A DNA stretch of 51,178 bases, from positions 1 through 51,178 of the IMG/VR virus record IMGVR_UViG_3300010430_000066; one strand, 5' to 3'. A program made the position numbers and the translations under genes. Shown piece after piece: positions 951 to 51,178 of the stretch (the first letter of the stretch is position 1; every line of letters begins with the position of its first letter). The notes under the pieces were generated by a model, which did not search any database, had not been told where the DNA came from, and saw nothing but the letters and a program-made list of their open reading frames with translations. The DNA is from a virus.

Positions 951-996
951 TTGACATGTTTTGTCAATAAAGATATTCTTTCAATGCAACGAAAGG
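951..996 (+). promoter_or_regulatory. Promoter A with palindromic operator and conserved transcript start
   Basis: TTGACATGTTTTGTCAA (951-967) is a 17-bp palindrome of the form TTGAC-N7-GTCAA. Its first six bases form a perfect -35 box; 17 bp later is TATTCT (974-979), a fair -10. Five bases further is TGCAACGAAAGG (985-996), shared with the sites before 44512 and 48437 on the minus strand. The AAAGGA within it serves as ribosome site for the ATG at 1005. It probably drives a second rightward transcript starting after the methyltransferases. Confidence 0.72.
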
Positions 997-1004
997 AAAA
1001 CACC

Positions 1005-4856: not shown

Positions 4857-5006
4857 ATGTCTAAAAAATATACATATGAGATAGATGGCAAAAAGTATGA
4901 AGCCAGATGGTTTACGGATGAGGAAATAAATAAGAAATATGCTCCGTTTATTTACGGGTTTCTCATCATTTGCATACTGATAACAGTAGCTTTGGAGTTG
5001 ATGTAA
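4857..5006 (+). CDS. Small membrane protein (49 aa)
   Basis: The ATG at 4857 follows GGAAAGGTAGAGTT. The N-terminal half is charged and soluble (MSKKYTYEIDGKKYEARWFTDEEINKKY is cytoplasmic by composition), and residues about 30-47 form one membrane helix (FIYGFLIICILITVALEL). Its TAA overlaps the next ATG (TAATG). Function unknown; the coupled start supports translation. Confidence 0.55.
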   Translation: MSKKYTYEIDGKKYEARWFTDEEINKKYAPFIYGFLIICILITVALELM

Positions 5007-5386
5007 TGACACAGTACGGATTAACACCACAACAGGAAAAATTATACAATTTTTTGCTTAATTGCATTGAAATTGAAAAGCGTGTGCCTTGCTACGAAGA
5101 AATGAGCAGGCATATGGGACTTAAATCAAAGTCAGGGATAAGCAGATTGATTGTAGCGCTTGAGCAGAGAGGGCGCATTGCGCGTATTCCTCATCATGCG
5201 CGTGCAATTAAAATTATGAAGCCAGATGATTTTTTATCATATGCAGATAAGCAATTTCTTTTATACGCGGCCGGTGAATTGAAATCATGGGCAAGTGGCT
5301 CAGTTATTTGTGATGATGACGAGGTGTTTTTGGAAAAAGTATCTGATTATTTGTATAAAGTTTTGGGTTATAAAAAAGAAGATTAA
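5006..5386 (+). CDS. LexA-type winged-helix DNA-binding protein
   Basis: 126 residues from the ATG at 5006 (TAATG overlap, GGAG upstream). Residues about 3-65 (YGLTPQQEKLYNFLLNCI...VPCYEEMSRHMGLKSKSGISRLIVALEQRGRIARIPHHARAI) match the LexA DNA-binding domain: three helices, then a wing. There is no Ser/Lys protease domain, so it is not self-cleaving. Such stand-alone LexA-like proteins are common in alphaproteobacterial phages. It probably regulates phage or host genes. It lies directly before the GapR homologue. Confidence 0.85.
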   Translation: MTQYGLTPQQEKLYNFLLNCIEIEKRVPCYEEMSRHMGLKSKSGISRLIVALEQRGRIARIPHHARAIKIMKPDDFLSYADKQFLLYAAGELKSWASGSVICDDDEVFLEKVSDYLYKVLGYKKED

Positions 5387-5411
5387 CATTAGAAATACAG
5401 AGGAGAGTAAT

Positions 5412-5726
5412 ATGTCAGAAAAAGCAGCAGGCATTGGCCATAACAGCGATACAGAGGAAGATAAGGCACAGGATGTTGGTGGTGTTGCCGGGCAGCGTCT
5501 ATCATCTTTTATTGAGCGCATTGAGCGTTTAGAAGAAGAAAAGGCCGCGCTAATGGAGGATATCAAAGAGGTTTACGCAGAGGCCAAAGGTGTTGGCTTT
5601 GATGTTAAGACAATGCGTAAGATTATCTCTCTGCGTAAGTTGGATCCTGAAAAGCGCAGGGAACAGGAGGAGCTGCTTTTACTTTATCAACAGGCTATAG
5701 GTATGCAGGGTGTTTTGCCTTTGTAA
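5412..5726 (+). CDS. gapR: GapR-like nucleoid-associated protein (DUF2312)
   Basis: 104 residues from the ATG at 5412 (AGGAGAG upstream). It opens with AGIGHNS, then LSSFIERIERLEEEKAALMEDIKEVYAEAKGVGFDVKTMRKIISLRK and ends LLLYQQAIGM, the complete DUF2312 pattern. In Caulobacter GapR binds overtwisted AT-rich DNA ahead of replication and transcription and stimulates topoisomerases. The family is essentially alphaproteobacterial, so this is strong host evidence. A phage copy could help replicate or transcribe phage DNA or disturb the host nucleoid; that is inference. Confidence 0.93.
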   Translation: MSEKAAGIGHNSDTEEDKAQDVGGVAGQRLSSFIERIERLEEEKAALMEDIKEVYAEAKGVGFDVKTMRKIISLRKLDPEKRREQEELLLLYQQAIGMQGVLPL

Positions 5727-41369: not shown

Positions 41370-41535
41370 TAATGAATTTCTTGAGGAAGTAGAGCAGGAA
41401 ATCAGCGCGCCAGTGCCGTGCATTGTTGATGAGCAAAACCTGCCTATTGCAGAGTTTGAGCAGGTATATCCAGCAATGATGCAGGTTTTGTTTGATTGGA
41501 TTGCTCAGAATGAGCCGGAAGATAATCAGCAATAA
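41254..41535 (+). CDS. Outer-membrane lipoprotein spanin (Rz1-like)
   Basis: 93 residues from the ATG at 41254, preceded by GGGGAAGAAAA and overlapping the Rz-like gene by 116 nt in another frame. The signal sequence MQNYVKPLRKRAGFLTVLALSVVLLSSC has lipobox L-S-S-C (Cys28). The mature part is acidic with PVPCIVDEQNLPIAEFEQVYPAMMQVLFDWIAQ, longer than lambda Rz1. It would join the outer membrane to the inner-membrane spanin for the last step of lysis. Confidence 0.8.
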   Translation: MQNYVKPLRKRAGFLTVLALSVVLLSSCANGVKSNLIVSNEFLEEVEQEISAPVPCIVDEQNLPIAEFEQVYPAMMQVLFDWIAQNEPEDNQQ

Positions 41536-41538
41536 AAA

Positions 41539-41566
41539 GCAGGTGATCCATGGAGAAATCACCTGC
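41539..41566 (-). terminator. Terminator at the convergence of early leftward and late rightward units
   Basis: GCAGGTGAT (41539-41547) and ATCACCTGC (41558-41566) form a perfect 9-bp stem. On the minus strand it is followed directly by TTTTTATT, so it efficiently ends the leftward operon. It may also slow plus-strand transcripts coming out of the lysis genes, but there is no T-run in that direction. Confidence 0.88.
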
Positions 41567-41567
41567 C

Positions 41568-41620
41568 TAAAATGACGCGTTGCAACGAAAGAAGGCGAAG
41601 TCTTTCCGCGACATTTTTTA
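41568..41620 (+). promoter_or_regulatory. Orphan copy of the conserved transcript-start element, possible small RNA
   Basis: TAAAAT (41568-41573) is a good -10; seven bases later is TGCAACGAAAGAAGG (41581-41595), identical to the first 15 transcribed bases at the minus-strand promoter before 44512. No -35 is visible. GAAAG/CTTTC then form a hairpin and TTTTTT follows at 41614-41619, giving a potential transcript of about 40 nt with no gene. It would be complementary to nothing obvious nearby. Confidence 0.4.
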
Positions 41621-41650
41621 ATCATATATGTACATTAGAATATTTGCAAG

Positions 41651-43158: not shown

Positions 43159-44229
43159 CTATAATCCCCATAGTTCGGTGTTGCTGATATATTCATCTGG
43201 CTCATCATCAATCCAGAATCCTTCGCCAAAAGCGGCATAATTCTTTTTAAATACTTCCGCGGCCGGTACGATATACTCAAGGAAAGCATCATCCACAGAT
43301 TTGTCACGTAGTGTTTGCTTTCTTCCGCGCGTTACAGGCGCAAGGCCTTTTTGTACAAAGCAAAACCAAAACTCATCACAGGGCGTTTCACTAAACGCTT
43401 TCAGCCATTCAGGATTAACATTTTCTGCGCCATGCACTTTGCCTTGCTTCACATATTGTTTGGCAATATTTACACCGTGCATGTAAATCCGTGATTGTAT
43501 CTGGTATAGAAACCTATTCATTGTTTTGATGATGGCACTATTCACAGGCTCATCAAATGTGTTGGCAAATGATTTAAGGTCGCATACAGGTGAAACCTTT
43601 AAATAATCAGGCCTTATCTTGCAGCGTATGCCGGTAATTGGGCAATCAAATATGATTGTTACCTCTGGATATCCACCAGCAAAATAGCTTTTAAGATGCT
43701 TTGAGCATTCAATCTGCTTTGCGCTAAACTCAATATATCTGTGTGTGGCCGCATCAATAAACTCAATATCTTTGGAATATTTTGCTTTGTGTTTTTTCTT
43801 TTCAATGTCAAGAATGCGTGCATATGGTTTTTCCTTGAGCAGCCTGTCAATACCTTGACGCTTTGTTTGGAATGACATGGGCAGTTTTGCATGTCTCAGC
43901 GCTGTGCGTAAATCATCACCTGTTCTTATGATCGTATCATCGCTGGGGTCATCCTCATAGTCAGGCGCATAGTGCGCATCATATATTGCTTTACCCTCAA
44001 GAATGCGCATGTGATATGCCCTGCCTTCCTCATATGCCTTGATATCTTTTTTAAAATCATCACGCAGAGGATTCATCCATGACTTAGACCAGAACATTGT
44101 AGGGCTTTTCAGTAAGTCCTTAATGGTTGATGACTGCAGGCAGGGTATTGATAGGTATTCCTCAAAGGACATATTAAAATATATGCCGCACTCAGGTGTT
44201 TCCCATGGCCATTGTTTTAAGCTACTCAT
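43159..44229 (-). CDS. RecE-like PD-(D/E)XK exonuclease (DUF3799 type)
   Basis: 356 residues from the ATG at 44229, which has GGAG upstream and overlaps the previous stop. MSFEEYLSIPCLQSSTIKDLLKSPTMFWSKSWMNPLR opens as in RecE-type nucleases. GRAYHMRIL supplies the His, and GIRCKIRPDYLKVSPVCDLKSFA gives the D...D-x-K catalytic set. QIQSRIYMHGV is the later QxxxY motif. It should digest double-stranded DNA 5' to 3' for phage recombination or concatemer formation. A longer frame from 44274 is possible. Confidence 0.86.
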   Translation of the reverse strand: MSSLKQWPWETPECGIYFNMSFEEYLSIPCLQSSTIKDLLKSPTMFWSKSWMNPLRDDFKKDIKAYEEGRAYHMRILEGKAIYDAHYAPDYEDDPSDDTIIRTGDDLRTALRHAKLPMSFQTKRQGIDRLLKEKPYARILDIEKKKHKAKYSKDIEFIDAATHRYIEFSAKQIECSKHLKSYFAGGYPEVTIIFDCPITGIRCKIRPDYLKVSPVCDLKSFANTFDEPVNSAIIKTMNRFLYQIQSRIYMHGVNIAKQYVKQGKVHGAENVNPEWLKAFSETPCDEFWFCFVQKGLAPVTRGRKQTLRDKSVDDAFLEYIVPAAEVFKKNYAAFGEGFWIDDEPDEYISNTELWGL

Positions 44230-44512
44230 TGTCTGATTCTCCATACACACGATCAACACAGGCTCTTGCCTCAATGGTGAAAGCTTCTGGTAATAGCTTT
44301 ATACATTCCTCAAGGTGGTGTAATAATGCAGGAGAATTAACAATAAGCCTTTCATTCGCATCATTTTCTTTTTTTGAACGCGGATCGCCAAGAACAATAG
44401 CCAGTGGCATAGCGTTATTTGATGAAAATATTGCACGTTGATAAACAGGATTGCCAACACCAATACCTTTGTATTCTCTTGTTTCCCATGGGGATTTTGA
44501 ATGTTCAGACAT
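44222..44512 (-). CDS. Hypothetical protein, first gene after promoter B
   Basis: 96 residues, with AAGAAGGAAAAGAC upstream. The region RSKKENDANERLIVNSPALLHHLEECIKLLPEA resembles the common phage motif NARLIAAAPELLEALE. The N-terminal part has PWETREYKGIGVGNPVYQRAIFSSNNAMPLAIVLG. Function unknown. Promoter B with the TTGAC-N7-GTCAA palindrome lies upstream, inside the end of the PcfJ-like gene. Confidence 0.68.
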   Translation of the reverse strand: MSEHSKSPWETREYKGIGVGNPVYQRAIFSSNNAMPLAIVLGDPRSKKENDANERLIVNSPALLHHLEECIKLLPEAFTIEARACVDRVYGESDNE

Positions 44513-44524
44513 GTCTTTTCCTTC

Positions 44525-44570
44525 TTTCGTTGCATAAAATCAGGCTATTTGTTTTGACGTTTTTTGTCAA
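44525..44570 (-). promoter_or_regulatory. Promoter B with palindromic operator and conserved transcript start
   Basis: On the minus strand TTGACAAAAAACGTCAA (44570-44554) is TTGAC-N7-GTCAA with a perfect -35 at its start. 17 bp later is TAGCCT, a weak -10, and then TGCAACGAAAGAAGG (44535-44521). It overlaps the last codons of the upstream PcfJ-like gene, so the palindrome is kept within coding sequence. It drives 44512 and the RecE-like group. Confidence 0.65.
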
Positions 44571-46082: not shown

Positions 46083-46445
46083 TTATCCTTTAATTATTTT
46101 GACAGCGGCTTTAAGTTTTTTGCAATCCTCAAGCTCTATCTCTTTGCATATTTTAAGAATAGTAACGGTGCGCTCATCAAGAGAAAGGTATTGAGTATCA
46201 CCCTCCTGCGGTGGAAATAAATCCTCAAACCGGCATTTAAAAATTTTGGTCACAGAGTAAAGTTTGGAAGAAGAAACCCTATTTATGCCTTTCTCGTATT
46301 TCTGCACCTGCTGAAAAGTAACACCGATAAGCTCACCTAAAACCTCCTGTGACATGTCATTTGCAAGCCGTAACTTTTTTATTCTGTCCCCAACATATTT
46401 ATCAATATAATCTGCTGTGCCTTTTTTATTTGTTGCTGTTTTCAT
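46083..46445 (-). CDS. XRE-family repressor
   Basis: 120 residues with CAGGAAAAATACT upstream. The helix-turn-helix is YVGDRIKKLRLANDMSQEVLGELIGVTFQQVQKYEKGINRVSSSKLYSVTKIF; the FQQVQKYEKG-NR wording is characteristic of alphaproteobacterial regulators. The C-terminal 45 residues are helical. No protease domain, so it is not LexA/CI-type. It is the best candidate for binding the TTGAC-N7-GTCAA palindromes, or it may only control its own pair with the PcfJ-like gene. Confidence 0.88.
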   Translation of the reverse strand: MKTATNKKGTADYIDKYVGDRIKKLRLANDMSQEVLGELIGVTFQQVQKYEKGINRVSSSKLYSVTKIFKCRFEDLFPPQEGDTQYLSLDERTVTILKICKEIELEDCKKLKAAVKIIKG

Positions 46446-46473
46446 AGTATTTTTCCTGTCTTTTGTTGTTGTT

Positions 46474-46527
46474 AAAAACCCACAGCCATGATGATAAGTC
46501 TATCGCTGACGTTTTCATGGCTGTGGG
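46474..46527 (-). terminator. Terminator upstream of the repressor gene
   Basis: CCCACAGCCATG (46479-46490) and CATGGCTGTGGG (46516-46527) form a perfect 12-bp stem with a 25-base loop. On the minus strand TTTTT follows. It separates the gene at 46541 from the repressor gene, so the repressor/PcfJ-like pair needs read-through or its own promoter. Confidence 0.85.
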
Positions 46528-46540
46528 GTACGCAGTAAAC

Positions 46541-48116: not shown

Positions 48117-48259
48117 GAATAAAACTCCCGTCTACATGATGATGAGCATACTTTTCCATGCCCGGTAAACTCAAGTCCGCATGCGTAACACGCCTTTACT
48201 TTCTTGGTTTCATCTGGTTTCTGTTCCTGCTGGTTTTCCTGCTCTGGCTTTTTATCCAT
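48113..48259 (-). CDS. Small zinc-finger protein (48 aa)
   Basis: The ATG at 48259 overlaps the end of the gene at 48252-48437, with GGAGG upstream (TGGAGGTAAAA). N-terminal half charged and Gln-rich (DKKPEQENQQEQKPDETKK), then ACYACGLEFTGHGKVCSSSC, a C-x2-C...C-x3-C zinc finger, ending RREFYS. Similar tiny Cys4 proteins sit near control regions of phages. Function unknown; RNA or protein binding is plausible. Confidence 0.66.
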   Translation of the reverse strand: MDKKPEQENQQEQKPDETKKVKACYACGLEFTGHGKVCSSSCRREFYS

Positions 48260-48437
48260 TTTTACCTCCACGATATGCAGGCACAGCAGTGCTGTACATC
48301 ATTTGTGTGTGCAAATCTTCAAGCATTGTTTCCACACGATCAAGCGCATCCTCAACATCGCGCATGGTTTCCTCGCGGTCGCAATCAAATGTTTGCGTAA
48401 CACTTCCTCTATAAATGTATGATTGTTCATTATGCAT
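48252..48437 (-). CDS. Small hypothetical protein, first gene of leftward operon
   Basis: 61 residues starting at 48437, with AAAGGAATACACC upstream, the same leader as the gene at 1005. Acidic helix at the centre (REETMRDVEDALDRVETMLEDLHTQMM). It is the first gene read from the leftward promoter, a place where antiterminators or regulators are often found; nothing in the sequence proves that. Confidence 0.62.
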   Translation of the reverse strand: MHNEQSYIYRGSVTQTFDCDREETMRDVEDALDRVETMLEDLHTQMMYSTAVPAYRGGKNG

Positions 48438-48446
48438 TGGTGTATT

Positions 48447-48518
48447 CCTTTCGTTGCAACTTCAAGTTATGAGAATTTGAAAATGATGTCAACAATTATT
48501 ATTGACAATTTTAGTCAA
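48447..48518 (-). promoter_or_regulatory. Leftward early promoter with two operator palindromes
   Basis: On the minus strand TTGACTAAAATTGTCAA (48518-48502) is a full TTGAC-N7-GTCAA palindrome. TTGACATCATTTTCAA (48492-48477) is an imperfect second copy; its TTGACA is the -35, with TAACTT 17 bp downstream as -10. Five bases on, TGCAACGAAAGGA begins the transcript. Two operators within 42 bp suggest cooperative repressor binding, as at phage early promoters. Confidence 0.7.
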
Positions 48519-48528
48519 ATGGTATTAG
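48502..48528 (+). promoter_or_regulatory. Candidate rightward early promoter
   Basis: On the plus strand the same palindrome gives TTGACA (48502-48507), and TGGTATTAG (48520-48528) is an extended -10 with a short 15-bp spacing. It would start the transcript through the structured leader to 48662. A repressor on this palindrome would block both directions. Confidence 0.45.
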
Positions 48529-48537
48529 TGTTGTTTT

Positions 48538-48641
48538 AAGGGTGTTGCGGGATGATTGAATCCACAGGAACACAAAGCGCAGTAATAAGTTTTCTACGGA
48601 TAAACAGCAAGCGGTTGTCAGGTTGCGATGGCCAACACCTT
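48538..48641 (+). other. Rightward leader with a closing stem
   Basis: AAGGGTGTTG (48538-48547) can pair with CAACACCTT (48633-48641) with one bulged G, enclosing about 85 bases. The enclosed part has no gene. AGGAGAAG follows as ribosome site for the ATG at 48662. It may be a leader structure controlling the first rightward gene; weak evidence. Confidence 0.33.
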
Positions 48642-48661
48642 ATATTTAACAGGAGAAGAAT

Positions 48662-48928
48662 ATGACTAAAGACGTAAATGCGCTTGATTTAATTAATGAT
48701 CGTGTCTATCGCGGAAATTATGCCGTTGATGTTTGGCCGGATAAATTTGCAATTATTATTGATGCAGGTCACGTAAAAACAGTCTCAGAGTTTTGTAAGA
48801 AACATAAAATTGACATTACGATAATGTCCAGAGTGCTGTCTTGCAAAAGGCTTCCTTCAAAAAAATATTTTGAAAAAGTTAATGCGGCCATTGCCAGTTA
48901 TATTGGTGATGATGAATACTGTGGATAA
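48662..48928 (+). CDS. Small Cro-like helix-turn-helix candidate
   Basis: 88 residues with AGGAGAAG upstream. VKTVSEFCKKHKIDITIMSRVLSCKRLPSKKYFEKVNAAI can be read as a helix-turn-helix (helix, turn KID, recognition helix ITIMSRVL) followed by a helix. It is the first gene on the rightward side of the divergent control region, where Cro-type regulators are found. The motif is not strong enough to name a family. Confidence 0.6.
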   Translation: MTKDVNALDLINDRVYRGNYAVDVWPDKFAIIIDAGHVKTVSEFCKKHKIDITIMSRVLSCKRLPSKKYFEKVNAAIASYIGDDEYCG

Positions 48929-50553: not shown

Positions 50554-51178
50554 GAAAATTAAGGGTTCTTGATCTTTTTAGTGGAATAGGAGGTTTTAGC
50601 CTTGGGCTTGAAAGGGCAGGGATGGAAACAGTTGCTTTCTGTGAAATAGATGAATTTTGTCAAAAAGTTTTAAAAAAAAATTGGCCTGATGTTCCGATTT
50701 TCAACGATGTGAGGAGTTTAGATTATGACGGATCAATTGACGTTATTTGCGGTGGATACCCTTGTCAGCCATTCAGTCTTGCCGGGAACAGAAAAGGCGC
50801 GGAAGATGACCGCCACCTCTGGTCAGCTATGTTTGGCCTCATCCAAAAGCACAGGCCGCGTTGGGTTATTGGAGAAAATGTTGCTGGACACATTAGCATG
50901 GGGATCGACAGTGTGCTTACTGACTTGGAGAGTGAGTTTTACACCACAAGGGCATTTATTATTCCGGCTTGTGCCGTCAACGCCCCGCACAGAAGAGATA
51001 GAGTATGGATTGTGGCCAACGCCAAGAGCAAACAAGGTACATCCACCAATAACAAACGAGAACAGGGAACAGCTTGCCAATCGGAACAAAGCGAATCTAG
51101 AGGAAGAAATAGCAGGATATTGCGGGGATGCGATTGGGAATTTGAACCCGCAGTGGGTAGAGTGGTTAATGGGGTTCC
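50550..51178 (+). CDS. DNA (cytosine-5) methyltransferase, N-terminal part (continues at base 1)
   Basis: The TTG at 50550 overlaps the previous TGA, with GGAG about eight bases upstream. Motif I RVLDLFSGIGGFSLGLERAG binds AdoMet; GGYPCQPFS is the catalytic motif IV with its Cys near residue 75; GENVAGH is motif VI; HRRDRVWIVANA is motif VIII. The window ends within the target-recognition region, and the gene finishes at 238. The full protein of about 247 residues is short for the family because the recognition region is only about 50 residues. It should make 5-methylcytosine in phage DNA. Confidence 0.92.
   Translation, partial: MRKLRVLDLFSGIGGFSLGLERAGMETVAFCEIDEFCQKVLKKNWPDVPIFNDVRSLDYDGSIDVICGGYPCQPFSLAGNRKGAEDDRHLWSAMFGLIQKHRPRWVIGENVAGHISMGIDSVLTDLESEFYTTRAFIIPACAVNAPHRRDRVWIVANAKSKQGTSTNNKREQGTACQSEQSESRGRNSRILRGCDWEFEPAVGRVVNGV
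51056..51178. repeat. Terminal direct repeat, right copy (contig closure)
   Basis: Identical to bases 1-123; see the left copy. When counting genome length, one copy should be removed. Confidence 0.93.

Follow-up and report, generated by a model that had tools for sequence, protein, structure and literature searches.

The 51,178-nucleotide stretch of viral DNA analysed here (IMG/VR record IMGVR_UViG_3300010430_000066, hereafter the window) carries early promoters of both directions that share a palindrome and a short element at the predicted transcript start, which raises the question of what this element does and whether it ties the leftward and rightward early genes together. An earlier note on the same DNA proposed that one regulator coordinates both directions and that the conserved 5' end is an antitermination, RNA-stability or translation tag. 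We think it likely that an antisense RNA of approximately 85 nt is encoded at the 3' end of the leftward operon and represses all three early leaders in trans.

The window ends are identical over 123 bp (1-123 = 51056-51178), and the phage genome that the window contains is therefore circular and complete, at about 51,055 bp. The terminase is approximately 40% like those of Acidovorax phage AP1, Caulobacter phages and Bordetella BPP-1, head-tail, tail and endolysin protein families are recognised, and no integrase was found among the proteins searched. A cytosine-C5-methyltransferase-like gene crosses the window ends (1-123 / 51056-51178). The leftward early region runs from 48437 to 41651, with genes for an XRE regulator and for a RecE/exonuclease VIII-like protein, and the rightward early region runs from 48662 on through two DNA methyltransferases (one at 213-947, the other spanning the contig ends). 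Site 1 lies within the rightward region, site 2 within the leftward region before the RecE-like gene, and site 3 at the switch. Given the circular genome, site 1 is approximately 3.6 kb downstream of the switch, so that sites 1-3 form a single early region around a lambda-like divergent switch.

Early promoters and their shared transcript start

Exact copies of TGCAACGAAAG are found at four places in the window, 985-995 (+), 44524-44534 (-), 48448-48458 (-) and 41581-41591 (+), compared with a mean of 0.06 under a first-order Markov model of the window. At each early promoter the element starts 5-7 bases past the -10 box. The promoters read TTGACA-N17-TATTCT-N5-TGCAACG at site 1 (-10 TATTCT at 974-979), TTGACA-N17-TAGCCT-N7-TGCAACG at site 2 (-10 TAGCCT at 44547-44542) and TTGACA-N17-TAACTT-N5-TGCAACG at site 3, the leftward promoter of the switch (-10 TAACTT at 48469-48464). 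The geometry described in the earlier note, with a -10-like hexamer 17 bases after TTGACA and the element 5-7 bases further on, is thus borne out at sites 1-3; the note had the three leader copies right and did not mention the fourth exact copy at 41581-41591. The leaders are:

985..997, + strand: leader 1, TGCAACGAAAGGA, a predicted antisense target and, for gene 1005-1262, the predicted transcript start and Shine-Dalgarno
44520..44534, - strand: leader 2, TGCAACGAAAGAAGG, preceding gene 44222-44512 and the RecE-like gene 43159-44274
48446..48458, - strand: leader 3, TGCAACGAAAGGA, preceding gene 48252-48437

Scanning IMG/VR for TTGACA-N(26-31)-TGCAACRAAAGGA gave 17 stretches, three of which are accounted for by two contigs related to the window. 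L214 and other single pattern matches lie at unrelated genes. The two relatives are:

G003, IMGVR_UViG_3300032212_000510: pieces L014 and L218, small-RNA locus L263
G002, IMGVR_UViG_3300035698_002599: piece L213, small-RNA locus L264

Both are divergent from the window (30-76% protein identity). In each, the three promoters recur at orthologous places, one past the methyltransferase region, one before RecE and one on the leftward side of the switch. Between the phages the element is 91-100% identical, and the leader flanks are mostly 12-50% identical in ungapped comparison, with higher values confined to the promoter boxes and the sequence upstream of site 1; TGCAACGAAAGGA is retained in both relatives although the flanks have otherwise diverged. 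Written as TGCAAYRAAAG, the element has four copies in each of the three genomes, alike in order and strand (three leaders and one antisense copy). The VRR-NUC-like, RecE, 46812-type and 1399-type proteins were used to look for further relatives and led only to these two phages or to distant, element-free ones, and an alignment search with VRR-NUC found no prophages. In G002, the homologue of gene 1399-1851 (L213:4715-5068) has an in-frame stop at codon 118, and the similarity runs past it.

Across 84,980 prokaryote species genomes the pattern turned up as 30 scattered single matches, approximately the estimated chance number, and hence the element is not a general host leader. The sole proteobacterial match with both a promoter and a gene (L248) comes from a genome that holds one copy.

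Operator-like sites and candidate regulators

The three 17-bp palindromes reported in the earlier note are exact, and TTGAC-N7-GTCAA occurs nowhere else in the window; the three copies compare with a mean of 0.06 under the first-order Markov model and a maximum of one in 300 simulations. Neither the palindrome nor TGCAACGAAAG is enriched in a window scan that allows up to two mismatches, and the weight therefore lies on the exact copies alone. One point of the note needs correcting: sites 1 and 2 have the -35 box within the perfect palindrome, whereas site 3 has it in the imperfect copy. The operator-like sites are:

951..967, + strand: operator-like palindrome TTGACATGTTTTGTCAA, the first six bases of which are the -35 of promoter 1 (homologous promoters at L014:4603+ and L213:4522+)
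44554..44570, - strand: operator-like palindrome TTGACAAAAAACGTCAA, containing the -35 of promoter 2 (homologous promoters at L218:2487- and L213:385-)
48477..48492, - strand: imperfect operator copy TTGACATCATTTTCAA, containing the -35 of promoter 3
48502..48518, no strand assigned: perfect operator-like palindrome between the divergent promoters, upstream of promoter 3

On the + strand, the TTGACA of 48502-48518 is itself a candidate -35 for the rightward promoter of gene 48662, and the palindrome probably overlaps that box. At this place the relatives have clear rightward promoters (TTGACA-N17-TATAAA in L014, TTGACATCTAACGCACAACTATTATAAGG in L213), and the whole switch layout, with divergent early promoters and repeated operator-like sites over the -35 boxes, is likewise seen in L014 and L213.

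The sequence at the operator position differs by phage. Where the window has TTGAC-N7-GTCAA, most G003 sites read TTGACA-N6-GTACAA and most G002 sites TTGACA-N6-GCACAA, and these phage-specific forms recur at the rightward switch promoters of the two relatives. On this comparison the exact palindrome is specific to the window phage, as would be expected if every phage has its own repressor specificity. Of the two elements that the earlier note looked to find in related phages, the start element is therefore kept and the palindrome sequence is not. Its proposed regulon survives in that an operator-like site and a start mark are shared by both early directions, also in the two relatives, and changes in the role given to the start mark. 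The position and repetition of the operator-like sites point to a regulator that binds them, for which there are two candidate genes near the switch:

48662..48928, + strand: small helix-turn-helix protein encoded by the gene next to the switch on its right (PHROG 3642, E 8e-4)
46083..46445, - strand: XRE/Cro-CI-type regulator (PF01381, E 2e-11)

The 48662 product is a candidate Cro-like regulator. By alignment it has a counterpart in all three phages, and its AlphaFold model (pLDDT 85) is all helical, with no significant match in a PDB fold search. In G003 the XRE homologue takes the first position right of the switch; none was found in the G002 pieces searched. In the window no repressor gene lies between the divergent promoters; 48438-48661 is gene-free, and the XRE gene is 2 kb away on the left side. 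A near-perfect intrinsic terminator (CCCACAGCCATGA..TCATGGCTGTGGG, then a T tract) at 46470-46535 (-) directly precedes that gene and so places it behind a terminator inside the leftward operon.

Two further early proteins deserve mention. The product of 5006-5386, present in all three phages at 34-38% identity, has a LexA DNA-binding domain and no evident peptidase domain; we rejected it as the operator binder, given its place deep in the rightward operon and the lack of anything that links it to the operator. The short protein of 5409-5726 (PHROG 4212, unknown function) shows 73-76% identity to its counterparts in the relatives, more than any other early protein seen, and we take it to resemble the alphaproteobacterial DUF2312/GapR type, which points to an alphaproteobacterial host.

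A fourth copy before the leftward terminator

The fourth copy of the element sits where the rightward late operon and the leftward operon end, in the stretch between them. Read on the leftward transcript it is the reverse complement of the leaders, and in all three phages it lies 7-14 nt before an intrinsic terminator. The features of this locus are:

41581..41591, - strand: antisense seed CTTTCGTTGCA, exact reverse complement of TGCAACGAAAG
41537..41568, - strand: intrinsic terminator of the leftward operon, a 13-pair stem followed by a T tract
41531..41614, - strand: candidate antisense small RNA of approximately 84-85 nt, a 5' stem-loop bearing the seed and then the intrinsic terminator
41621..41649, - strand: candidate own promoter of the small RNA, TTGCAA-N17-TATGAT (weak evidence)

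The layout of the candidate RNA is the same at L263 (G003) and L264 (G002), with terminators GCAGGTGAT..ATCACCTGC-TTTTTATT in the window, AACAGCTCC..GGAGCTGTT and a T tract in G003, and GCCCCG..CGGGGC and a T tract in G002. Around the antisense copy the flanks are 15-40% identical among the three phages in ungapped comparison, which is the level of unrelated sequence, and the element is retained. The chance of finding the element on one strand of such a 95-nt 3' UTR is 4.4e-4 per genome. Evidence for an own promoter is weak, given that promoter-like matches around the locus occur in chance number; the candidate is good in the window, moderate in G003 and not seen in G002. Just past the SSB stop codon of G002 and upstream of its candidate RNA, L264:1542-1558 (minus strand AGACGTTCTGAACGTCT) forms a perfect 8-bp inverted repeat, possibly a processing hairpin or a protein site.

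The predicted fold of all three RNAs consists of a 5' stem-loop that leaves most of the GUUGCA end of the seed single-stranded, and then the terminator. It is mostly the terminator that makes the folding z-scores of the complete RNAs low, and the 5' domain alone is mildly more stable than shuffled sequences (z -1.1, -1.2 and -1.9), so that we count the fold as supporting and not decisive. A cmscan of the whole window against Rfam gave 0 matches at the gathering threshold, and relaxed searches of the three loci gave sub-threshold matches only.

The candidate RNA and the leaders would form duplexes of 10-14 bp that run from leader nucleotide 1 across the Shine-Dalgarno GAAAGGA at three leaders per phage, with energies of -18 to -27 kcal/mol; at leader 2 of the window the perfect match to the seed region extends to 15 nt. 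When all ORF start regions were ranked by their longest contiguous complementarity to the RNA of the same phage, counting wobble pairs where needed, the leaders were among the longest matches (15/13/11 bp in the window, 15/13/13 in G003 and 13/13/13 in G002). Contiguous complementarity was used because ranking by unrestricted duplex energy is noisy against all start regions, and some leaders are then outranked by other starts. Where a leader deviates from the consensus, it pairs best with the RNA of its own phage in three of four cases: window site 2 (-27.4 vs -14.3 and -16.4 kcal/mol with the RNAs of the other two), G003 site 1 (-19.1 vs -15.1 and -16.0) and G002 site 3 (-20.6 vs -16.4 and -16.3). 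The exception is G002 site 1, for which the own RNA is not the best partner.

The same arrangement emerges from a motif-blind scan for any 11-mer that occurs in at least three leaders and has its reverse complement at most 45 nt from a terminator. With exact matching the window is positive and none of 272 other loci (3.09 Mb) is; with one wobble-compatible change allowed, all three phages are positive, as are 4 of the 272 controls.

Promoter anatomy, conservation in three phages, complementarity and terminator can all be read from the sequence. From the complementarity and its conservation we infer that the RNA is produced, pairs in the cell and represses. In the mechanism that we propose, every early promoter would bear two regulatory tags, an operator-like site and a transcript-start tag. 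The operator-like site, over the -35 box and spacer, would be bound by a phage helix-turn-helix repressor or Cro that differs between phages, and early transcripts would start at (U)GCAACGAAAGGA, which contains the Shine-Dalgarno. The small RNA might come from its own promoter or be cut from the 3' UTR of the leftward operon, and would accumulate once that operon is transcribed to its end or when its own promoter is used; ending in the operon's intrinsic terminator, it would expose the complement of the transcript start. GUUGCA would make the first contact with the 5' end of an early mRNA and then zip over the Shine-Dalgarno, so that 10-14 nt at the extreme 5' end of the three early mRNAs would be paired and the Shine-Dalgarno hidden. 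Translation of the leftward and rightward early operons would then drop together, as negative feedback or as lysogeny-type silencing, and a repressor could act at the same promoters through the operator-like sites. Among the roles that the earlier note offered for the 5' element, a translation tag comes closest to this best explanation, an antisense-RNA target whose partner is encoded by the fourth copy.

Alternative explanations and known phage RNAs

The seed lies on the strand of the leftward operon directly before its terminator and shares this strand with leaders 2 and 3, which would also fit pairing in cis, with the 3' complement of the leftward mRNA meeting its own 5' leader in decay or translation control and no free small RNA involved. 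We regard this as unlikely, given that leader 1 belongs to a separate transcript of the opposite strand and yet, in all three phages, bears this element as well, which cis pairing cannot explain.

Slightly less probable still is that the element is a tag for a protein or host factor, at the DNA or RNA level, that serves antitermination, RNA stability or promoter escape, with the fourth copy as a further + strand site. A near-fixed spacing from the -10 box at three leaders and four copies in each genome would suit such a tag. However, in + orientation the fourth copy of G002 has no promoter and none of the three fourth copies precedes a gene, and the strand of all four is kept exactly, as sense leaders and an antisense 3' end. 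The antitermination role raised in the earlier note found no support; boxA-like matches are weak and away from the leaders, none lies within 300 bases of a leader start, and one at 1308-1319 (2 mismatches) is about 320 bases past promoter 1. GAAAGGA is a normal Shine-Dalgarno sequence and TTGACA the consensus -35, but it is very improbable that these are simply strong sigma-70 promoters with good Shine-Dalgarno sequences, copied from one another, and that the fourth copy arose by chance, given that the UGCAAC part is unnecessary for a Shine-Dalgarno and yet kept where the flanks no longer align, and that matches among the 84,980 species genomes stay at about chance level (30).

The antisense RNA acting in trans thus remains the preferred reading. 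A wider version, in which one antisense RNA shuts every 5'-tagged early operon in trans and in step with the repressor as a phage RNA regulon, is plausible, and we would put it somewhat below an even chance. Given that operator and repressor diverge and the RNA tag is fixed, the RNA could, if the regulon is true, be a second layer of immunity or timing that is able to act across heteroimmune relatives.

Among known phage RNAs, c4 of P1/P7 binds around an mRNA ribosome-binding site and blocks translation, with its complementary stretches in loops (PMC12197685). The candidate RNA would likewise cover the ribosome-binding region of phage mRNA, but c4 addresses one antirepressor message, whereas the candidate matches the 5' ends of three early messages and falls into no Rfam family. 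P4 CI RNA, a phage antisense RNA released by processing, is complementary to two target sites and silences the early genes of its own phage (PMC4825925). The candidate RNA appears aimed at its own phage's early genes too; P4 CI RNA works through premature termination of transcription at seqA and seqC, around the gene that encodes it, whereas the predicted targets here are transcript starts with a Shine-Dalgarno, one of them in another operon. The sar RNA of P22 and OOP of lambda are encoded opposite their target with a long overlap. Both are phage-coded antisense RNAs against phage regulatory genes (PMC12197685). They act on a single target, unlike the candidate RNA with its short seed, trans-encoded position and multiple predicted targets. 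VpdS of phage VP882 and PreS of phage lambda are phage-encoded small RNAs, of which VpdS alters phage and host mRNA levels (PMC12197685). What has been described of them concerns mainly the host RNA network or host genes (dnaN for PreS) and Hfq, whereas the best matches of the candidate RNA are its phage's own three early leaders.

In the open-access literature we found no phage RNA described as addressing several of its own early operons through an identical transcript-start tag; the phage antisense RNAs described there mainly have single phage targets or act on the host. From sequence alone, the model predicts one RNA, three targets in its own phage, exact pairing positions and conservation despite diverged repressor sites. 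It would amount to post-transcriptional coordination of two opposite early operons and is directly testable, and its search recipe, a shared 5' tag with its complement beside a terminator, is usable on other phage genomes.

The early region itself resembles a lambda-type switch in its divergent early promoters, operator-like sites over the -35 boxes, Cro-like helix-turn-helix gene to the right and RecE/exonuclease VIII to the left. It differs in lacking a repressor gene between the promoters and in having more operator-promoter pairs inside both early operons.
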